Shown: positions 10,847 through 37,143 of the stretch, piece by piece
How the letters are laid out: every line of letters begins with the position of its first letter
Numbering within the stretch: position 1 is the first letter of the stretch
NCBI GenBank assembly: GCA_022340425.1
Contig: JAJDNY010000127.1
Span: 1-38,186, forward strand
DNA: 38,186 bases
Reading direction: 5' to 3'
From: Desulfobacteraceae bacterium
GTDB taxonomy: Bacteria > Desulfobacterota > Desulfobacteria > Desulfobacterales > JAABRJ01
Notes under the pieces: generated by a model
What the model was told of the DNA's origin: nothing
The model's database searches: none
Seen by the model: only the letters and a program-made list of their open reading frames with translations
Made by a program: the position numbers and the translations under genes

Positions 10847-12940
10847 ATGAACCATCCCTTATTGTTTGAAATTGGAACCGAGGAGATCCCGGCGGGCTAC
10901 ATCGAGCCGGCCCTGGCGGCCCTCTCGCGGATCCTGCAGGAAAAGCTCGCCGCGGCGCGCATCGACCACGGCGAGGCCCGGGTGTACGGCACCCCGCGGC
11001 GGCTGGCGATCCTGATGGCGGACGTGGCCGACCGGCAGAAGCCGTTGACCACCGAGGTCACCGGCCCGCCCGCCACCGTCGGCTTCGACCCCCAGGGCAA
11101 GCCCACCGTCGCGGCCCGCAAGTTCGCCGAGAAGGTCGGGATCTCCGTCAGGAAGATCAAGGTCGTCGACACCCCCAAGGGCGCTTATCTGGCGGCGCGC
11201 AAAACCGAGCGCGGCCTGGCGACCCTGACCCTGCTCAAGACCATCCTGCCCGAGGTGGTGGTCGCGCTGCCGTTTCCCAAAACCATGCGCTGGTCGGATT
11301 ACCGTACCGCTTTTGCGCGGCCGGTGCATTCGCTGCTGGCGCTGCTGGGGGGCCGGGTGGTGGGTTTTTCCCTGGAGGATATCAAAAGCGGCCGCCACAC
11401 CTGGGGACACCCCTTCCTGAAGCCCGGTCGGATCAAGATCTCGCACCCCTCGGAATACCTCCAGCGGCTGGAGACAGCCTGGGTGCTGGCCGATATCGCC
11501 AAGCGCCGCAGCCGGGTCAAGGCCGAAATCGAAGCCCTGGCCGCCGAACTGGGCGGCCGCATCCTGCCCGACGAGGAACTGCTCACCACCGTGACCCACC
11601 TGATCGAATACCCGGCGCCGGTTGCCGGCCGGTTCGACACCAAATTTCTCGAGCTGCCCGACGAGGTGCTGATCACCTCCATGCGCGAGCATCAGAAATA
11701 CTTTGCCGTCGAAGACGCCGCCGGCGCCTTGATGCCCCATTTTATAGCCGTCAACAACACCGCCGCCAAGGACCCTGCCCTGGTGGCGCGCGGCCACCAG
11801 CGGGTGCTGCGGGCGCGTCTGGAAGACGCCATGTTCTTTTATCGCAGCGATCTGAAGGCCTCCATGGAAGACTGGGTCGACAAGTTGCAGGGCGTCCTGT
11901 TCCAGGCAAAGTTGGGCTCGATGCACGCCAAGGCCCTGCGGGTGCAGGCCTTGGCAGAGACCGTCGCCAGCTGGGTGGATGCCGCCGGCACCCTCCGGAC
12001 GGATGCCTCCCGCGCCGCCCTGCTCTGCAAGGCCGACCTGGTCAGCCAGATGGTGGTGGAGTTTCCGAAACTCCAGGGGGTCATGGGGCGGGTCTATGCC
12101 GCCGTTGCCGGTGAACCCGAGGCCGTTGCCGTCGCCATCCAGGAGCATTACCGGCCCACCGCCTCGGGCGGCGCCCTGCCGCGGACCCAAACCGGTGCGG
12201 TGGTCAGCATCGCGGACAAGATGGATTCCATCTGCGGCTGCTTCCGGGTGGGGCTGGTGCCCACGGGCGGGTCGGACCCCTACGCGCTGCGCCGCCAGGG
12301 AATCGGGATCGTCCAGATCATGCGCGACCAGGGGATGCGCTTTTCCCTGGGCAAGCTGATCGCGGCCGCTCTGGCTGCCTACGAGGGAATCGGAGACGCG
12401 CCCCCGACCCAGAGTGCCGAGCAGGTTTTCGCCTTTTTGCGCAACCGGATGGCCCACCTGCTGACCGAGGAGGGGCTCTCCAAGGACGTCGTCGCGGCGG
12501 TGGTGGCGGCCTCGGCGGACGACGTGCCCGACGTCTGGGAGCGCGCCCGCGCCCTGGAGGCCCTCAGGGCCGCACCGGACTTCGAGCCCCTGGCGATCGC
12601 CTTCAAGCGGGTGGTCAACATCATGAAAAAGGCGGGTGTCGCCGCGGCGCCGTCCGATGCTGGCGCCGTTTCCCCCGCGCGCTTCGAGCATCCCTGTGAA
12701 GGCGATCTCCTGCAGGCCTACCAGAGGGTCAAGGCCGAGGTGGCGCGCCACCAGGCTGACCGGCGCCCGGATCTGGCCCTGCGGGCGATCGCTACCCTGA
12801 GGGGTGCGGTGGATGCCTTTTTTGACGGCGTCATGGTGATGGCCGAGGAACCCGCGGTCCGCGACAATCGCTTCGCCCTGCTGGCCCTGGTGGCCGGCCT
12901 GTTCGAAAATATCGCCGATTTTTCAAAAATTTCAACCTGA
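10847..12940 (+). CDS. glyS: Glycyl-tRNA synthetase beta subunit
   Basis: The beta subunit binds tRNA-Gly and is needed for aminoacylation by GlyQ. The 697-residue product starts with the conserved LLFEIGTEEIPAGYIEPAL segment. It has the HD-like core (around 310-480, including ALLCKADLVSQMVVEFPKLQG) and a C-terminal helical domain that resembles the anticodon-binding region of arginyl-tRNA synthetase. AGAGGA lies about 8 nt before the ATG. Length matches the family (about 690). Confidence 0.97.
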   Translation: MNHPLLFEIGTEEIPAGYIEPALAALSRILQEKLAAARIDHGEARVYGTPRRLAILMADVADRQKPLTTEVTGPPATVGFDPQGKPTVAARKFAEKVGISVRKIKVVDTPKGAYLAARKTERGLATLTLLKTILPEVVVALPFPKTMRWSDYRTAFARPVHSLLALLGGRVVGFSLEDIKSGRHTWGHPFLKPGRIKISHPSEYLQRLETAWVLADIAKRRSRVKAEIEALAAELGGRILPDEELLTTVTHLIEYPAPVAGRFDTKFLELPDEVLITSMREHQKYFAVEDAAGALMPHFIAVNNTAAKDPALVARGHQRVLRARLEDAMFFYRSDLKASMEDWVDKLQGVLFQAKLGSMHAKALRVQALAETVASWVDAAGTLRTDASRAALLCKADLVSQMVVEFPKLQGVMGRVYAAVAGEPEAVAVAIQEHYRPTASGGALPRTQTGAVVSIADKMDSICGCFRVGLVPTGGSDPYALRRQGIGIVQIMRDQGMRFSLGKLIAAALAAYEGIGDAPPTQSAEQVFAFLRNRMAHLLTEEGLSKDVVAAVVAASADDVPDVWERARALEALRAAPDFEPLAIAFKRVVNIMKKAGVAAAPSDAGAVSPARFEHPCEGDLLQAYQRVKAEVARHQADRRPDLALRAIATLRGAVDAFFDGVMVMAEEPAVRDNRFALLALVAGLFENIADFSKIST

Positions 12941-29232: not shown

Positions 29233-30345
29233 TCAGGCCTTTTTCCGGGCTGACGGGATGTAGCTGCACAGCGGCTCTTCGGCCAGGTAGTTGCCGGTGG
29301 CCTCGTAGGCCCGGGCACGGCACCCCCCGCAGACCCGCTTGTACTCGCAGCAGCCGCATTTGCCTTCCAGGTTGTCGTAGTCGCGCAGCTTCAGAAAGAC
29401 CTCGGACGTGCGCCAGATGTCGGCAAACGATTGGCGGGTGACGTCGCCGCAGTTCAGCTCCAAAAAACCGCACGGCTGGACGATGCCGGTGTGGGAAATG
29501 AAGCAGAAGCCGGTGCCTCCCAGGCAGCCGCGGGTGACGGCATCCAGCCCGTGGGTTTCGAAGCTGACGTGCTCGCCGTCGGCCTTGGCCCGCTGCCGGA
29601 GGATGCGGTAGTAGTGGGGGGCGCAGGTCGCCTTGAGTTGCAGCGGCGTCTTGCCCCGCTGGTCGTAAAACCAGTTCAGGGTGCGCTCGTACTCTGCGGC
29701 GTCGATGGCCCGGTCCGCGATATACTTGCCGCGCCCGGTGGGAACCAGCAGGAAGATATGGTGGGCCACGGCCCCCAGGCTCACGGCCAGTTCCTGGATC
29801 CGGCTGATCTCGGCCAGGTTGTCCTTGGTGATCGTGGTGTTGATTTGGAATTCGATCCCCGCCGCCTTGGCCCGCTCGATGCCCCTCAGGGCGGCGTCAT
29901 AGGCGCCCGCCACGCCCCTGAAGCGGTCGTGGCTCTCGCGGGTGGCGCCGTCTATGCTGACGCTGATGCGCTGGATGCCCGCAGCCGCAAGCCGGTGGGC
30001 CGATTCGGGCGTAATCAGGGTCCCGTTGGGAGCCATCACCATACGCAGCCCCTGGTCGCTGCCGTAGCGCGCGATTTCGAATATGTCCTCGCGCAGCAGC
30101 GGCTCCCCGCCCGTCAGAATCACGATGGGGCTGCCCAGTTGGGCGATTTGGTCCAGCAGCCGCAGGCATTGGCCGGTTTCCAACTCCCCGCTGTAGGGGC
30201 CGCAAGTGGCGGCCGCCCGGCAGTGTTTGCAGGAGAGGTTGCAGTTGCGGGTGACCTCCCAGGCCACAAGCCGCAGGGTGGCCTCCGTGGGGGGGCTGTG
30301 GGGATGGCCGGTTGGGTGGGTGCCGTGGGGGTGTGGGTTCTTCAT
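29233..30345 (-). CDS. ahbD: Radical-SAM heme synthase AhbD
   Basis: AhbD converts iron-coproporphyrin III to heme b by oxidatively decarboxylating two propionate groups, the last step of the siroheme-dependent route. The 370-residue product has the radical-SAM cluster motif CNLSCKHC (Cys35, 39, 42), GGEPLLR, and a C-terminal SPASM-type set of cysteines (CGCCEYKRVCGGC and a final CSYIP) for an auxiliary cluster. The N terminus is His/Pro-rich, with His at 5, 7, 10, 14 and 16. The ATG at 30345 is the first start that gives a compact protein; no strong ribosome site is visible. It faces away from hemB. Confidence 0.88.
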   Translation of the reverse strand: MKNPHPHGTHPTGHPHSPPTEATLRLVAWEVTRNCNLSCKHCRAAATCGPYSGELETGQCLRLLDQIAQLGSPIVILTGGEPLLREDIFEIARYGSDQGLRMVMAPNGTLITPESAHRLAAAGIQRISVSIDGATRESHDRFRGVAGAYDAALRGIERAKAAGIEFQINTTITKDNLAEISRIQELAVSLGAVAHHIFLLVPTGRGKYIADRAIDAAEYERTLNWFYDQRGKTPLQLKATCAPHYYRILRQRAKADGEHVSFETHGLDAVTRGCLGGTGFCFISHTGIVQPCGFLELNCGDVTRQSFADIWRTSEVFLKLRDYDNLEGKCGCCEYKRVCGGCRARAYEATGNYLAEEPLCSYIPSARKKA

Positions 30346-30500
30346 GGTATAGGCTTCGCTTTCAGGGTGGCAACCGCGGCGCTCTGTGGCACTGGTTGCG
30401 GTTTTTTGTCTGGGTGAGGCCGCACCATACCCCCCGTCCGGCCGGCGGTCAAGGCCCCGGATCGGGTCTTTGGCGGCGCCCTGCGGCCATGGGGAATGCC

Positions 30501-30530
30501 TTGACAACCCGAAATGCCAGGGGCTATATC
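30501..30530 (+). promoter_or_regulatory. Promoter of hemB
   Basis: A consensus TTGACA (30501-30506) is followed after 18 bp by TATATC (30525-30530). Transcription would begin near 30537, giving a hemB leader of about 106 nt with the structures described below. Confidence 0.6.
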
Positions 30531-30642: not shown

Positions 30643-31653
30643 ATGGCTTTCCCCGCCAAACGCCCCCGCAGGCTGCGAATGAGCCCCACCATTCGTCATA
30701 TGGTGCGCGAGACCACGCTCACCCCGCATGATTTCATTCTGCCCTTGTTTGTCAAAGCCACCGGCGACCGCCACTATCGGGAGCCCATCAAGAGCATGCC
30801 CGACTGCTATCACCTCAGCCCGGCGATGGCGGCCGTCGCCGCCGAAGAGGCCTACGCGGTGGGGGTGCCTGCGGTGTTGCTCTTCGGCCTGCCGGCCCAC
30901 AAGGACAGCCGCGGCTCCGGCGCCTGGGCCGAGGACGGGTCGGTGCAGCTGGCCGTTCGGGAAATCAAGGCCGCCCGGCCCGAGATCTGCGTCATCTGCG
31001 ACACCTGTCTGTGCGAGTACACCGACCATGGGCATTGCGGGATAGTCTGCGGCCACACGGTGGACAACGACGCCACCCTTGAGTTGCTGGCCCGTACGGC
31101 GCTCAGCCAGGCCCGGGCCGGGGCCGACATGGTGGCCCCCTCGGACATGATGGACGGTCGGGTGGCCGCCATCCGGCAGGCTCTCGACGCCCAGGGTTTC
31201 GCGCACACGCCGGTGATGTCCTACGCCGCCAAGTATGCCTCCTCCTTCTACGGGCCCTTCCGGGCCGCCGCCGACTGCTGTCCGGCTTTCGGCGATCGCA
31301 AGACCTACCAGATGGACCCCGGCAACGCCCGCGAGGCCCTGCGCGAGGTCGCCCTGGACATCGAAGAGGGGGCCGATATCGTCATGGTCAAACCGGCCCT
31401 GCCGTATCTGGATATCATCAAGGCTGTCCGCGAAACCTTCGATCTGCCCGTGGCAGCCTATCAGGTCTCCGGTGAGTACGCTCAGATCAAGGGGGCCGCG
31501 GCCATCGGTCTGGTTGACGAAGTCTGCAATATGGTGGAAAGCCTCACCGCCATCAAACGCGCCGGGGCCGACATGATCGTGACCTACTTCGCCGTCACGG
31601 CCGCCCGCGTGCTGGCCCGTCAAATGACCAGCTGCGACGACTGCAGCCTGTAA
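30643..31653 (+). CDS. hemB: Porphobilinogen synthase (delta-aminolevulinate dehydratase)
   Basis: HemB joins two 5-aminolevulinate molecules to porphobilinogen, feeding all tetrapyrroles, including siroheme, the precursor for AhbC and AhbD. The 336-residue product has the zinc-site cysteines in [14 protein letters not shown] (Cys122, 124, 132), indicating a zinc-type enzyme. The two Schiff-base lysines are Lys197 (MSYAAKYAS) and Lys250 (MVKPALPY). The ATG has GGAG 9 nt upstream, part of the alternative-helix element in the leader. Confidence 0.97.
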
Positions 31654-32720: not shown

Positions 32721-33899
32721 TCAGGCAATTTCATCGTCGCTGAGGTAGCAAGCCGGATCCGGGGCCCAGACGTCGCCGCTGACCGCTTCGGCCCGAACCC
32801 TGAAGTTGCCGCCGCAGATATCCAGCCAGCGGCAGGTGGCGCAGCGGCCTTTGACATGGCGCTTCTTTTCCTTGAGCTTGCCCAGTAGGGGCTCGGATGT
32901 GTCCGTCCAGATGGTCGAAAACGGGCGTTGGCGAACATTGCCGAAACTGTAATGGCGCCAGAACTGGTCGGCGTAAACTTCCCCATCCCAACTGACGCAC
33001 CCGATGCCGCGGCCCGAGTTGTTGCCCTCGTTCATCTTGAGCAGCTCGAGCACCCCTTTGGCCCTTTCGGGGTTTTCACGACGCAGCCGCAGGTAGAGGT
33101 AGGGGCCGTCGGCATGGTTGTCGACGGTTAAGACCTCTTTGGGCTTGCCCCGGTCGTGAAGGTCCTTGGTGCGGTCTATGATCAGGTCCACGGCCGCCCG
33201 GGTCTCGGCGTGGGAGAGGTCGTCCTGGATCAGTTTGGAGCCCCGACCGGCATAAACCAGGTGGTAAAAACAGATCCTGGGGATCTGCATCTCCTCCAAA
33301 AGGTCGAAAATCTTCGGAATTTCGGCGACGTTGGCCTTGTTGATGGTAAAGCGCAGCCCCACCTTGATGCCGGCCTCCTGGCAGTTGCGAATGCCCTCGA
33401 GTGCCTTGGCATAAGCGCCCCTGACCCCTCTGAAACGGTCGTTGACCGCCTCCATCCCGTCCAGGCTGATGCCGACGTAGGACAGGCCGATTTCTTTCAG
33501 AATGCGGGCCTTTTCCCGGGTGATGAGGGTTCCGTTGGTGGAAATGACCGCCCGCATGCCCTTTTGCACCGCATAGCCCGCAAGCTCGGCCAAATCAGGG
33601 CGCACCATGGGTTCCCCCCCCGAAAAGAGCAGAACCGGGGCACCGAAGCCCGCCAGATCGTCGATCAGCCTTTTCCCCTCCCCGGTGGTGAGTTCGTTGT
33701 TGAAGGAGATGTCCTTGGCCTGGGCATAGCAATGGACGCATTTCAGGTTGCAGCGCCGGGTGACGTTCCAGACCACCACCGGCCGCTTGTCCCTGGAGAA
33801 CTGCAGCAGATGCGAGGGCAGATGGGCCGAGGAGCGGCCGTAGCGCAGGGCGTCCGAGGGCTCCACGGTTCCGCAGTAAAGCTTGGAGATTCCGATCAT
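32721..33899 (-). CDS. ahbC: Radical-SAM 12,18-didecarboxysiroheme deacetylase AhbC
   Basis: AhbC removes the two acetate side chains of 12,18-didecarboxysiroheme to give iron-coproporphyrin III, the substrate of AhbD. The 392-residue product begins with the characteristic MIGISKLYCGTVEPSDALRY. It carries the radical-SAM motif CNLKCVHC (Cys50, 54, 57), GGEPMVR, and C-terminal cysteines (GIGC, CATCRWLDICGG, ACYL) for auxiliary clusters. Its start is 4 nt after the ClpX-like gene's stop, and AAGGA inside that gene's end is the ribosome site, so the two genes form one operon. Confidence 0.92.
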   Translation of the reverse strand: MIGISKLYCGTVEPSDALRYGRSSAHLPSHLLQFSRDKRPVVVWNVTRRCNLKCVHCYAQAKDISFNNELTTGEGKRLIDDLAGFGAPVLLFSGGEPMVRPDLAELAGYAVQKGMRAVISTNGTLITREKARILKEIGLSYVGISLDGMEAVNDRFRGVRGAYAKALEGIRNCQEAGIKVGLRFTINKANVAEIPKIFDLLEEMQIPRICFYHLVYAGRGSKLIQDDLSHAETRAAVDLIIDRTKDLHDRGKPKEVLTVDNHADGPYLYLRLRRENPERAKGVLELLKMNEGNNSGRGIGCVSWDGEVYADQFWRHYSFGNVRQRPFSTIWTDTSEPLLGKLKEKKRHVKGRCATCRWLDICGGNFRVRAEAVSGDVWAPDPACYLSDDEIA

Positions 33900-33903
33900 C
33901 GCA

Positions 33904-35673
33904 TTAGGTCCTTTGGAATTGAACGCCCGTAACCTGGCGCAACTCGTTTTTGATCAGGTTGTTGAGATACTCTTCGGGGCTGAGCAGGGCCTGCTTGGAG
34001 ATAAAAAAACGGTTTTTTCCCGATTTTTCCTGAACCAGCTTGAGACCTAATTCGAAGTCGGCGGAGAGCTTGCGACCCAACTCCTCCGGTGTGATGGTGG
34101 CAGTCAAAAACTGTCCCACCACAAAGTCGATGGCCTCTTCTTCGAGGACGATGTTGATGTCATGGCGCTTGAAAAAATTCAGTTCGATGTTTTTGGTTTC
34201 ATCTATGAGCGCTTTGATTTTGCGCAGCACGCCGCCCACATCTTGAAGGTGCACGGCGTAGTGGGCCGCGGCCAGGGCGATGCGGGACTCGGTCAGGGTC
34301 AGGTTGTGCTTGTCCGTCAGGGTGCGGCTGTTGGTGCGGATGTAGTCGCGAACGTATTGGGTTTCGGCCTGGGCGATACGCTCGAAGGCGGCAGAACGTT
34401 GCGGGTCCCGGGGGGATGCCAGCCATTGCGCCAGGACCGCCTCCGGGGTTTGAATCACGGCCGCGGTCACCGGGAACCGCTGAATGTTCGTTGAGGGCAG
34501 GCGTTTTTCAAACGGCAGCAGCGCCTGCTCCACCGCGCTGACCAGCCCCCTGGCGCCGGTGTGCTCCTCAAAAGCCCGGCCGGCCAGAAGCCGTAGGGCC
34601 TCGTCGCTGAATTTGATTGCGATGCCGTAGGCGGCAAAGTCCATTTTTTTGCCGAGGATGATGGGATTGTTGGGGCTTTTGAGGATGGCGAAAAGGTCAT
34701 CCTGCTCGAGGCTTTCAAAAACCGCACGCACCGGCAGCCTGCCGACGAATTCGGATTCGAACCCATACCGGATCAGGTCTTCCGACTTCAGATGCTGCAA
34801 CAGGTGGGTGCCGTGGGTCGCCTTAGTCACGCTCGCCCCGAAGCCGATGCCCTGATCGGATACCCGCTTTTTGATAATGTCGATCAGCTCCGAGAATGCG
34901 CCGCTGACGATGAACAGGATGTGGCGGGTATTGACCGTGGTTTTTTCGCGCTTGCCGGTTTTGCGGTAGCGCTCGATCTCCTGGATCATTGAAATCGGGT
35001 CGTGGGGTACCTTGAGGTCCACATCGGTTTCTTCGAGCGGTTTCAGGAGCGCGCGCTGAACCCCCGTACGGGAAACGTCGGCGCCGATCAGGTTGCGGCT
35101 GGAGGCGATTTTATCGATCTCGTCGATATAGATGATGCCAAACTGGGCCCGCTCGATGTCGCCGTCCGCTTCGCGCACCAGATCGCGTACCAGGTCTTCG
35201 ACGTCGCCGCCGACGTAGCCGGTTTCGCTGAATTTGGTGGCGTCCCCCTTGACCATCGGGACGCCGATTTTTTTGGCAATCAAGCGGATCATGTAGGTTT
35301 TGCCAACCCCGGTGGGGCCGAGCATCAGGACGTTGTTTTTGATGCTGCCCACCATCTCGCCGATTTCATCCGGGGAGGCGGCCATGTGGTTGATACGGTT
35401 GAAATGGGTGCAGATCTTGGTCGCCAGTACGGTTTTGGCCAGGTCCTGCTTGACGATGTACTGGTCCAAGTAGGCGACCAGTTCCTCTGGCTTGAGGTCG
35501 AAATAGACCGGTGAGGGGCGGGTGGCCGGTCCGGCGGAATCGGCTTCCGCTTTTTGGGCTGTCGCCACGGGGGAAATGATGCGAACACTGTCGCCAAATT
35601 TTTTGGACAGCAGCTCAACCATTTCTTTCTCGATTTCCTTGGGTGTGATGGCTTTTTCAGCAGGTGTTTTCAT
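33904..35673 (-). CDS. Atypical ClpX-like AAA+ unfoldase with C-terminal extension
   Basis: The 589-residue protein has a ClpX-type AAA+ core. Landmarks are Walker A GPTGVGKT (119-126), the pore loop GYVG (152-155), Walker B IIYIDEID (180-187), the ClpP-docking loop IGF (276-278) and sensor 2 GAR (373-375). It differs from true ClpX in three ways. The N-terminal zinc domain is replaced by about 50 residues without cysteines. The segment where ClpX has its RKH loop reads KTTVNTRH. About 180 extra residues, mostly helical, follow the core (about 409-589). It is operonic with ahbC. It could partner ClpP or act alone as an unfoldase. A GTG two codons upstream is possible, but neither start has a ribosome site. 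Confidence 0.88.
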   Translation of the reverse strand: MKTPAEKAITPKEIEKEMVELLSKKFGDSVRIISPVATAQKAEADSAGPATRPSPVYFDLKPEELVAYLDQYIVKQDLAKTVLATKICTHFNRINHMAASPDEIGEMVGSIKNNVLMLGPTGVGKTYMIRLIAKKIGVPMVKGDATKFSETGYVGGDVEDLVRDLVREADGDIERAQFGIIYIDEIDKIASSRNLIGADVSRTGVQRALLKPLEETDVDLKVPHDPISMIQEIERYRKTGKREKTTVNTRHILFIVSGAFSELIDIIKKRVSDQGIGFGASVTKATHGTHLLQHLKSEDLIRYGFESEFVGRLPVRAVFESLEQDDLFAILKSPNNPIILGKKMDFAAYGIAIKFSDEALRLLAGRAFEEHTGARGLVSAVEQALLPFEKRLPSTNIQRFPVTAAVIQTPEAVLAQWLASPRDPQRSAAFERIAQAETQYVRDYIRTNSRTLTDKHNLTLTESRIALAAAHYAVHLQDVGGVLRKIKALIDETKNIELNFFKRHDINIVLEEEAIDFVVGQFLTATITPEELGRKLSADFELGLKLVQEKSGKNRFFISKQALLSPEEYLNNLIKNELRQVTGVQFQRT

Positions 35674-35681
35674 AACCACTA

Positions 35682-35710
35682 TTGATAATCATGCCCATTT
35701 GGGAATTCAA
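35682..35710 (-). promoter_or_regulatory. Promoter of the clpX-like/ahbC operon
   Basis: On the minus strand TTGAAT (35705-35710) and TATCAA (35682-35687) are spaced by 17 bp. The predicted transcription start is at about 35675, only 2 nt from the ATG at 35673. A CCCA/TGGG dyad lies between the two boxes and could be an operator, but is short. Confidence 0.5.
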
Positions 35711-35922: not shown

Positions 35923-36060
35923 CGCTTACCGGCGGTCGTTGTCTCTTTAACGTTCCCGGCCATCCCCAAGTGCCCATCGGCGGCGGTCTTCCCACCCAAA
36001 GGCAGCGGCCCCTGAACGGGACGGCTGCAACCTGCGGGATAAAAAGCGCAAGAGGTGCAC

Positions 36061-36792
36061 ATGACGGTTGAACCCGATCCCCACGTCGAGGAAAAGCTCT
36101 ACACCCGTTACCGCAAGCTGGCAACCCTCTATCGGCAAACCCGGACGAAAATCGAGCGCTTGGAAGACCATCGCGAGTTCATTTCCCTGGGACGTTTCTC
36201 CGAGCTGCTGACCGAAAATGAAAAGCTGTTGGCCGACCTCAGCGCCCGCCTGGCGCCCCTGACGGCCCGGGTGGAGGCGGTTTTGTGCAGCAGGAAAATG
36301 GAAGCCCGATCGGTCGAAGCGCAGTTGGCCCCGCTGGAGCGGGAAATTCAGGAGGCCCGTGTGCTGCACAAGATCAATCTGATTTCATGGCGCCAGCTGC
36401 GCAGCGAGACCAAAAAATCCAAGGGGCAAAGAAACCGTCTCCTCAGATCGTTGAAGGCCAGGAGGCGTGAAATCCGGCAGGTTCAGAATCTTCTGGACCT
36501 GGTCGCTCCCGGGCAGGCCGCAAAGTCCCCCAAAAGCCTGAGCTTTCTGTGGCGGCCCCGGCCCGGGGCCGCTTCAATCACCCCTGGTGCGAACCGGTTG
36601 CAGGAACTGAAAGTCGAAGCGCAGGCCCTGCGCAGCGAGAAAAAAAAGGCCGCTGAGCGCGCCGCGCCCACCCGCCGGGAAACGACCACGGTGGAAAAAC
36701 TCCTGGCAGCGGTTCAAAACGGCGATACGCGCGCCCTGACGACGATGTTCCCGGCCAGCGCCGGAATCACGGTCTGTGTGCGCCAGCCTTGA
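36061..36792 (+). CDS. Coiled-coil protein of unknown function
   Basis: The 243-residue product is almost entirely charged alpha-helix, rich in Lys, Arg, Glu and Leu with heptad-like spacing from about residue 10 to 140, and basic overall. No signal peptide, membrane segment or catalytic motif is visible. I do not recognise a family. ATG 36061 has GAGG (36050-36053) 7 nt upstream; a GTG two codons earlier does not. Its last codons and stop lie in one copy of a 20-bp repeat next to a palindromic element, so the C terminus may have been altered by an insertion. Confidence 0.7.
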   Translation: MTVEPDPHVEEKLYTRYRKLATLYRQTRTKIERLEDHREFISLGRFSELLTENEKLLADLSARLAPLTARVEAVLCSRKMEARSVEAQLAPLEREIQEARVLHKINLISWRQLRSETKKSKGQRNRLLRSLKARRREIRQVQNLLDLVAPGQAAKSPKSLSFLWRPRPGAASITPGANRLQELKVEAQALRSEKKKAAERAAPTRRETTTVEKLLAAVQNGDTRALTTMFPASAGITVCVRQP

Positions 36793-36800
36793 CAGTTCCG
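36781..36800. repeat. 20-bp direct repeat, copy 1
   Basis: The sequence CGCCAGCCTTGACAGTTCCG is present here and again at 36938-36957, exact over 20 bp and different on both sides. This copy provides the final codons and the TGA stop of the coiled-coil gene, and its last 10 bases are the left end of the palindrome. Confidence 0.9.
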
Positions 36801-36914
36801 TTAAATGGCCAATTTCTGCGTTGCGCTGCATCTCGAAGTCGCTGCGGCGTACAGCAGTACGCCTCACTCCGCGAGATTTGCGCGCCTTGATATTGGCCAT
36901 TTAACGGAACTGTC
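36791..36914. repeat. 124-bp palindromic (MITE/REP-like) element
   Basis: The ends are perfect 23-bp inverted repeats (36791-36813 and 36892-36914), beginning GACAGTTCCG on each strand. The interior is an imperfect palindrome: ATCTCG pairs with CGAGAT (36872-36877), and the centre is a perfect GGCGTAC/GTACGCC hairpin with loop AGCA (36846-36863). The element codes for no protein. I see no clean target-site duplication. Whether it is repeated elsewhere in the genome cannot be seen here. Confidence 0.85.
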
Positions 36915-36937
36915 TGGATTTTGAATTTTTACTGGTT

Positions 36938-36957
36938 CGCCAGCCTTGACAGTTCCG
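36938..36957. repeat. 20-bp direct repeat, copy 2
   Basis: This is an exact copy of 36781-36800, lying 157 bp downstream. A third, inverted copy of its last 10 bases is the right end of the palindrome (36905-36914). It contains TTGACA, a possible -35 box. Confidence 0.9.
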
Positions 36958-37016
36958 GAAAAGGTTGCTTTCTATTTTTGGTTGCGATGACTGCATCGGG
37001 TGCAGGCGGCGGGCGC

Positions 37017-37067: not shown

Positions 37068-37143
37068 TGGTGCGCCCGGCAGGATTCGAACCTGCGATCT
37101 CCAGCTCCGGAGGCTGACGCCCTATCCCCTGGGCTACGGGCGC
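37068..37143 (-). tRNA. tRNA-Arg (anticodon CCG)
   Basis: The minus strand forms a full cloverleaf: acceptor GCGCCCG/CGGGCGC, D arm GCCC/GGGC, anticodon stem TCAGC/GCTGG (one G-U pair), and T loop TTCGAAT in the T arm GCAGG/CCTGC. The loop CTCCGGA gives anticodon CCG, which reads Arg codon CGG. The discriminator is A and CCA is encoded (37068-37070). It has its own promoter and terminator. Confidence 0.97.

Follow-up and report, generated by a model that had tools for sequence, protein, structure and literature searches.

The 38,186-nucleotide stretch of a Desulfobacteraceae contig analysed here (the window) holds a gene for a ClpX-like unfoldase immediately upstream of ahbC, and the question raised by this locus is what such a protein does beside the genes for heme synthesis. 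ClpX is usually viewed as one gene with one architecture per bacterium. A preliminary description of the locus had proposed that this ClpX paralogue may remodel or degrade an enzyme of the siroheme-to-heme route, or help to insert iron-sulfur clusters or tetrapyrroles, with a long C-terminal extension as its substrate adaptor.

The unfoldase gene and its operon

The features of the locus are listed in Table 1. The gene had been placed at 33897-35710, and the supported open reading frame lies slightly inside this interval. As had been described, its end is separated by 4 nt (33900-33903) from the start of ahbC, and a ribosome-site-like sequence for the latter can be read within the unfoldase gene, from 33914 to 33909. 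No sigma-70 promoter was found in a scan upstream of the unfoldase gene. In relatives the usual order is unfoldase-ahbC-hemB-ahbD, all on one strand, and with respect to it hemB and a transporter-like gene are inverted in the window. The true start of ahbD may lie downstream of the start of its open reading frame.

Table 1. Features of the unfoldase gene and of the neighbouring heme-synthesis genes, with positions in the window
Feature	Position	Strand	Residues	Evidence and remarks
ClpX-like AAA+ unfoldase gene (P0001)	33904..35673	(-)	589 aa	ATG start; ORF and translation, Pfam AAA_2 and ClpB_D2-small
N-terminal segment	35503..35673	(-)	1-57	conserved helix 11-26 and disordered linker (low pLDDT) replacing the Cys4 zinc domain
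AAA+ large domain	34669..35502	(-)	58-335	ClpX crystal structures, Z 29-30 (VIA-align, AAA+ core); 38-40% identity to ClpX chains
Walker A GPTGVGKT	35296..35319	(-)	119-126	identical in 73/74 homologues
Pore-1 loop GYVG	35209..35220	(-)	152-155	invariant in 74 homologues
Segment replacing the canonical RKH loop	34933..35025	(-)	217-247	model helix 226-239
IGF tripeptide (ClpP-docking loop)	34840..34848	(-)	276-278	[ILMV]GF in 73/74 homologues
First AAA+ small (lid) domain with sensor-2 arginine	34414..34668	(-)	336-420	Pfam ClpB_D2-small; model H-E-H-H-E-h-H
Helical insert	34249..34413	(-)	421-475	alignment and model; largely missing from Verrucomicrobiota/Poribacteria homologues
Second lid-like domain without GAR sensor-2 motif	33913..34248	(-)	476-587	hhalign, VIA-align, model
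AAAGGA ribosome-site-like sequence for ahbC	33909..33914	(-)		inside the unfoldase gene, read in the sequence
ahbC, 12,18-didecarboxysiroheme deacetylase	32721..33899	(-)		ATG at 33899; TIGR04546 777 bits, cut-off 650
hemB (porphobilinogen synthase)	30643..31653	(+)		PF00490; NF006762 above cut-off
ahbD (heme b synthase)	29233..30507	(-)		TIGR04545 568 bits, cut-off 500, match from residue 80

Motor core and family membership

As read from its residues and from its model, the protein has the motifs of an unfoldase that is driven by ATP, uses a pore loop and docks on ClpP, together with a second lid. The pore loop and the IGF loop are both kept, as the preliminary description had it, and Walker B (IDEIDK), the arginine finger (EFVGRLP) and sensor 2 (TGARGL) also occur, with conservation across almost all of the 74 homologues. 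In its AAA+ core fold, Walker motifs, GYVG, IGF loop, arginine finger and sensor 2 the protein agrees with canonical bacterial ClpX (TIGR00382/NF003745), whereas it differs from it in the absence of the Cys4 zinc domain, the replacement of the RKH loop and the duplication of the lid. The loss of the zinc domain and the change of the RKH loop had also been noticed correctly: residues 1-57 are devoid of cysteine, as they are in 71 of the 74 homologues, and the canonical PPKGGRKHPQQ is replaced by KVPHDPISMIQEIERYRKTGKREK in the window protein.

The best NCBIfam matches of the unfoldase are two ClpX equivalogs, and it scores under the cut-offs of both (NF003745, 309 against 359 bits; TIGR00382, 278 against 370.75), as do three other members of the subfamily. 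The score for HslU is also below its cut-off (TIGR00390, 165 against 362 bits). HslU (ClpY) shares with the window protein a related AAA+ core with GYVG and the absence of a zinc domain; unlike the window protein, it contains an I domain insertion and lacks the IGF loop. A role as a defence protein was discarded, PADLOC giving weak P-loop matches only.

The C-terminal extension contains a second lid

The long helical extension of the preliminary description is present, with around 174 residues past a core that ends near residue 415, although its distal part turned out to be a duplicated AAA+ lid. A profile of residues 476-587 matched the first lid of the same protein by hhalign with a probability of 98.5% (E=1.7e-15) and the canonical ClpX lid with E=1.3e-7, while slices of the large domain, used as negative controls, gave E values of at least 0.0015. 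In an AlphaFold2 model built from a 29-sequence alignment (mean pLDDT 81) the fold of the extension is predicted with confidence, and the extension reached a pLDDT of 94.8 when modelled alone. The order of its elements (helix, strand, helix, helix, strand, short helix, helix) is in the model the same in residues 479-586 as in residues 337-419 of the first lid.

Structural comparisons were less pronounced. The top VIA-align matches of the extension are HslU and ClpX lids, with modest Z values of 8.2 to 7 and an rmsd of 2.6-3.2 over about 80 residues, an HslU lid being among the best (Z 8.2). With Foldseek, no match of the extension alone passed an E value of 0.001, the matches being weak (E about 2), and the search with the whole model reported mostly ClpX cores, which is uninformative for the extension. 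The assignment as a lid therefore depends mainly on the profile comparison and on the order of the elements. The GAR motif, with its sensor-2 arginine, is absent from the second copy. Profiles and model together lead us to conclude that the AAA+ lid is duplicated, the last 110 residues or so being the second copy, from which the sensor-2 motif has been lost. No solved ClpX sequence among those matched in the analysis covers this duplicated lid.

Other views of the extension were rejected. An unrelated helical adaptor was one of them: the extension has no match to a Pfam family, but the profile and model comparisons identify a lid copy. The insert at residues 421-475 was not accepted as a third copy: hhalign gave a probability of 7% against the first lid, the model places no strands in the insert, and its match to the second lid (86.7%, E=4.3e-6) involves helices only, between slices that overlap by a few residues.

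A separate ClpX subfamily beside canonical ClpX

The genome of the window also contains a canonical clpX, in a tig-clpP-clpX operon, so that the paralogue is not the only clpX of its organism, as the preliminary description had required for its proposal. One ClpP and a separate hslU-like gene were detected in the same genome. Of 12 further carrier genomes, all but one have a canonical clpX that scores above the cut-off. In a tree built on the AAA+ core, with HslU as outgroup for the root, canonical ClpX and the paralogues fall into two distinct clades (98 and 96, respectively), with long branches between them.

Homologues of the paralogue occur in 119 of the 247 genomes of the phylum of the window, which to judge from the names of its nearest named relatives is Thermodesulfobacteriota, and relatives bearing the extension were found, among the matches listed, in records of Verrucomicrobiota, Lentisphaerota, Kiritimatiellota, Planctomycetota and Poribacteria; in one phylum of this second set about 19 of 79 sampled genomes carry a homologue. 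Its sequence relationships place the unfoldase in an ancient, unnamed subfamily of ClpX that lives beside canonical ClpX and is deeply separate from it; the subfamily is present in around half of the genomes sampled from one phylum and also in part of the Verrucomicrobiota. Nothing relevant to a second ClpX of this kind, or to ClpX in connection with AhbC, was found in the open-licence literature.

Gene context and co-occurrence with heme synthesis

Among the 247 genomes of the phylum, the paralogue accompanies ahbC in 83 and occurs without it in 36, ahbC occurs without the paralogue in 55, and the remaining 73 lack both genes. The ferrochelatase gene hemH is present in 26 of the 36 carriers without ahbC. 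Of the 83 genomes with both genes, 55 have ahbC co-directionally downstream, no more than about 850 bases away, and the other 28 have it elsewhere or on another contig. The unfoldase is not tied to AhbC. A service specific to the AhbC/AhbD route, as first proposed, is not supported by this tabulation, with its 36 carriers without ahbC and 55 ahbC genomes without the paralogue, and on this co-occurrence an AhbC-specific factor was rejected as the general role. The preliminary description had regarded homologues that are mostly away from ahb genes, or in genomes lacking them, as adverse to its proposal; this applies in part, in view of 36 of the 119 carriers, of a sister clade linked to dnaJ and of the Verrucomicrobiota homologues.

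What remains of the proposed heme connection is a looser link. The context was counted by hand with one entry per family, for 45 families with a readable context, and in 32 of them ahbC or hemB lies downstream of the unfoldase gene, sometimes after a gene for a receiver-like protein; the others have dnaJ (9), a gene for a zinc-ribbon-like protein (2) or no co-directional partner (2). Several of the hemB-linked families use hemH, which indicates that the link is with heme synthesis in general. In the tree, the dnaJ-linked genomes are in one clade (97), and the four context states require 8 changes, supporting that the arrangement is old and was shaped by few events.

The upstream side of the loci was taken as an internal control for the conservation of the downstream side. 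In pairs of heme-linked loci from different genomes, one of the three downstream genes was common to 81-100% of the pairs, against 0-17% upstream, and the downstream synteny persists below 50% protein identity with the upstream genes scrambled. This argues that the pairing with heme genes has been kept by selection, and leaves the reason for it unsaid. No recognised heme-operon gene was found near the Verrucomicrobiota homologues.

Several neighbours of the unfoldase gene were observed in these loci. In the sister clade, a gene for a DnaJ-type co-chaperone follows within about 35 nt in most cases and overlaps in some (L039-L043, L049, L056, L160, L162, L165-L167, L170, L174 and L175). In families f46 and f76 (L044, L048, L173 and L179) the gene that follows encodes a zinc-ribbon-like protein of 70 residues, after which a gene for a SurA/PpiD-type isomerase was found in 2 of the 4 loci read. 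In several families, a gene for a receiver-like protein of 120 residues is located between the unfoldase gene and ahbC or hemB (L051, L052, L058, L066, L073, L086, L161 and L163).

Receiver-type adaptors of ClpXP, such as CpdR, are known. The single-domain receiver-like gene resembles those of CpdR and RssB, and differs from them in that its product has no phospho-acceptor aspartate in the six sequences aligned; it looks like a pseudo-receiver, judging from the alignment. By analogy it is a candidate adaptor of the unfoldase (CpdR is named in PMC8973945). The window has no such gene.

Possible roles of the unfoldase

The reading that we favour, as a fairly probable one, is that of a ClpP-docking unfoldase with clients of its own, which selection keeps co-expressed with heme synthesis in one large lineage. 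The protein is predicted to form a hexamer, which would dock on the only ClpP detected in the cell and would unfold or degrade its own set of clients. Devoid of the zinc domain, the protein would select these clients with the segment that replaces the RKH loop, with its N-terminal helix and with the additional lid. Partners encoded by neighbouring genes may help, the pseudo-receiver in some genomes and DnaJ in others. In the lineage of the window, co-expression with the heme-synthesis genes would be maintained by selection, most likely for the tuning or quality control of a tetrapyrrole enzyme or of a heme-dependent protein.

A heme client is plausible by analogy with mitochondrial ClpX, which activates ALA synthase by partial unfolding, a process that needs ATP hydrolysis and pore loops and not proteolysis (PMC7077987). 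Both cases have a ClpX-type unfoldase associated with heme synthesis, although in the window the association is by operon only and the architecture of the protein differs. Conserved gene proximity has earlier indicated a true partner of ClpXP, trigger factor (PMC7804408). A bolder version, tentative and on the unlikely side, is that the tandem-lid ClpX serves specifically to regulate heme synthesis in a large lineage of sulfate reducers, a bacterial counterpart of mitochondrial ClpX acting on ALA synthase, with the second lid, joined in some lineages by the pseudo-receiver, as the dock for clients or adaptors. If the unfoldase does control heme synthesis, a bacterial unfoldase would be linked to the supply of tetrapyrroles, as ClpX is in eukaryotic mitochondria.

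Nearly as likely as the heme-linked reading, with a probability that we would put a little below even, is a role in general protein quality control, in which the heme operon would offer convenient co-regulation and contain no client. The coupling to DnaJ in the nine families of the sister clade, where mostly just a few nt separate the two genes, points in this direction, as do the zinc-ribbon-like gene in f46 and f76, the LonB/LonC-like protease gene that follows the unfoldase gene in two loci, and the Verrucomicrobiota homologues. Since these homologues and the dnaJ-linked clade have no heme context, the ancestral role may have been general. The PpiD/SurA-type isomerase gene next to the zinc-ribbon-like gene could be added to this list, but PpiD and SurA proteins act in the envelope, which makes that link weak. 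General quality control is also at odds with the conservation of the downstream side of the heme-linked loci at less than 50% identity with a scrambled upstream side, which suggests selection on the heme pairing itself.

It is doubtful that the unfoldase works as a remodeller without proteolysis, activating by partial unfolding an enzyme common to the heme routes, for instance HemB or one of the enzymes of the ALA steps. Such a mechanism is known in a ClpX relative (PMC7077987) and would fit the adjacency to hemB whatever the later heme route is, but the ClpP-docking loop kept in all but one of the 74 homologues points to work with ClpP. Equally doubtful is that the gene order was inherited by chance, with a merely shared promoter and a function unrelated to heme; the 8 context changes are consistent with one ancestral arrangement, but the upstream genes of the same loci were not conserved over the same divergence. 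Finally, a dedicated factor for the maturation or turnover of AhbC/AhbD in the siroheme-dependent route is very improbable, for all the 4-nt spacing and common operon in the window and the frequent downstream position of ahbC, given the carriers without ahbC, most of them with hemH, the ahbC genomes without the paralogue, the carriers with ahbC elsewhere, and the several families without AHB in which the paralogue still adjoins hemB.

Other features of the window

A tRNA-Arg was called by ARAGORN at 12031-12111, within a long open reading frame (10847-12940). A second tRNA-Arg with the same anticodon is found at 37068-37143, and in view of this and of its position inside the open reading frame the first call is probably spurious. 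Upstream of the unfoldase gene and on the other strand, an open reading frame at 36055-36792 encodes a coiled-coil-looking protein of 245 residues with no match to a Pfam family. At 36783-36960, cagttccgttaaatggccaat was seen by eye as an inverted repeat with copies around 110 bases apart, and the words gccagccttgacagttcc, also recognised by eye, recur to either side of it, an arrangement that resembles a small mobile element or repeat element.
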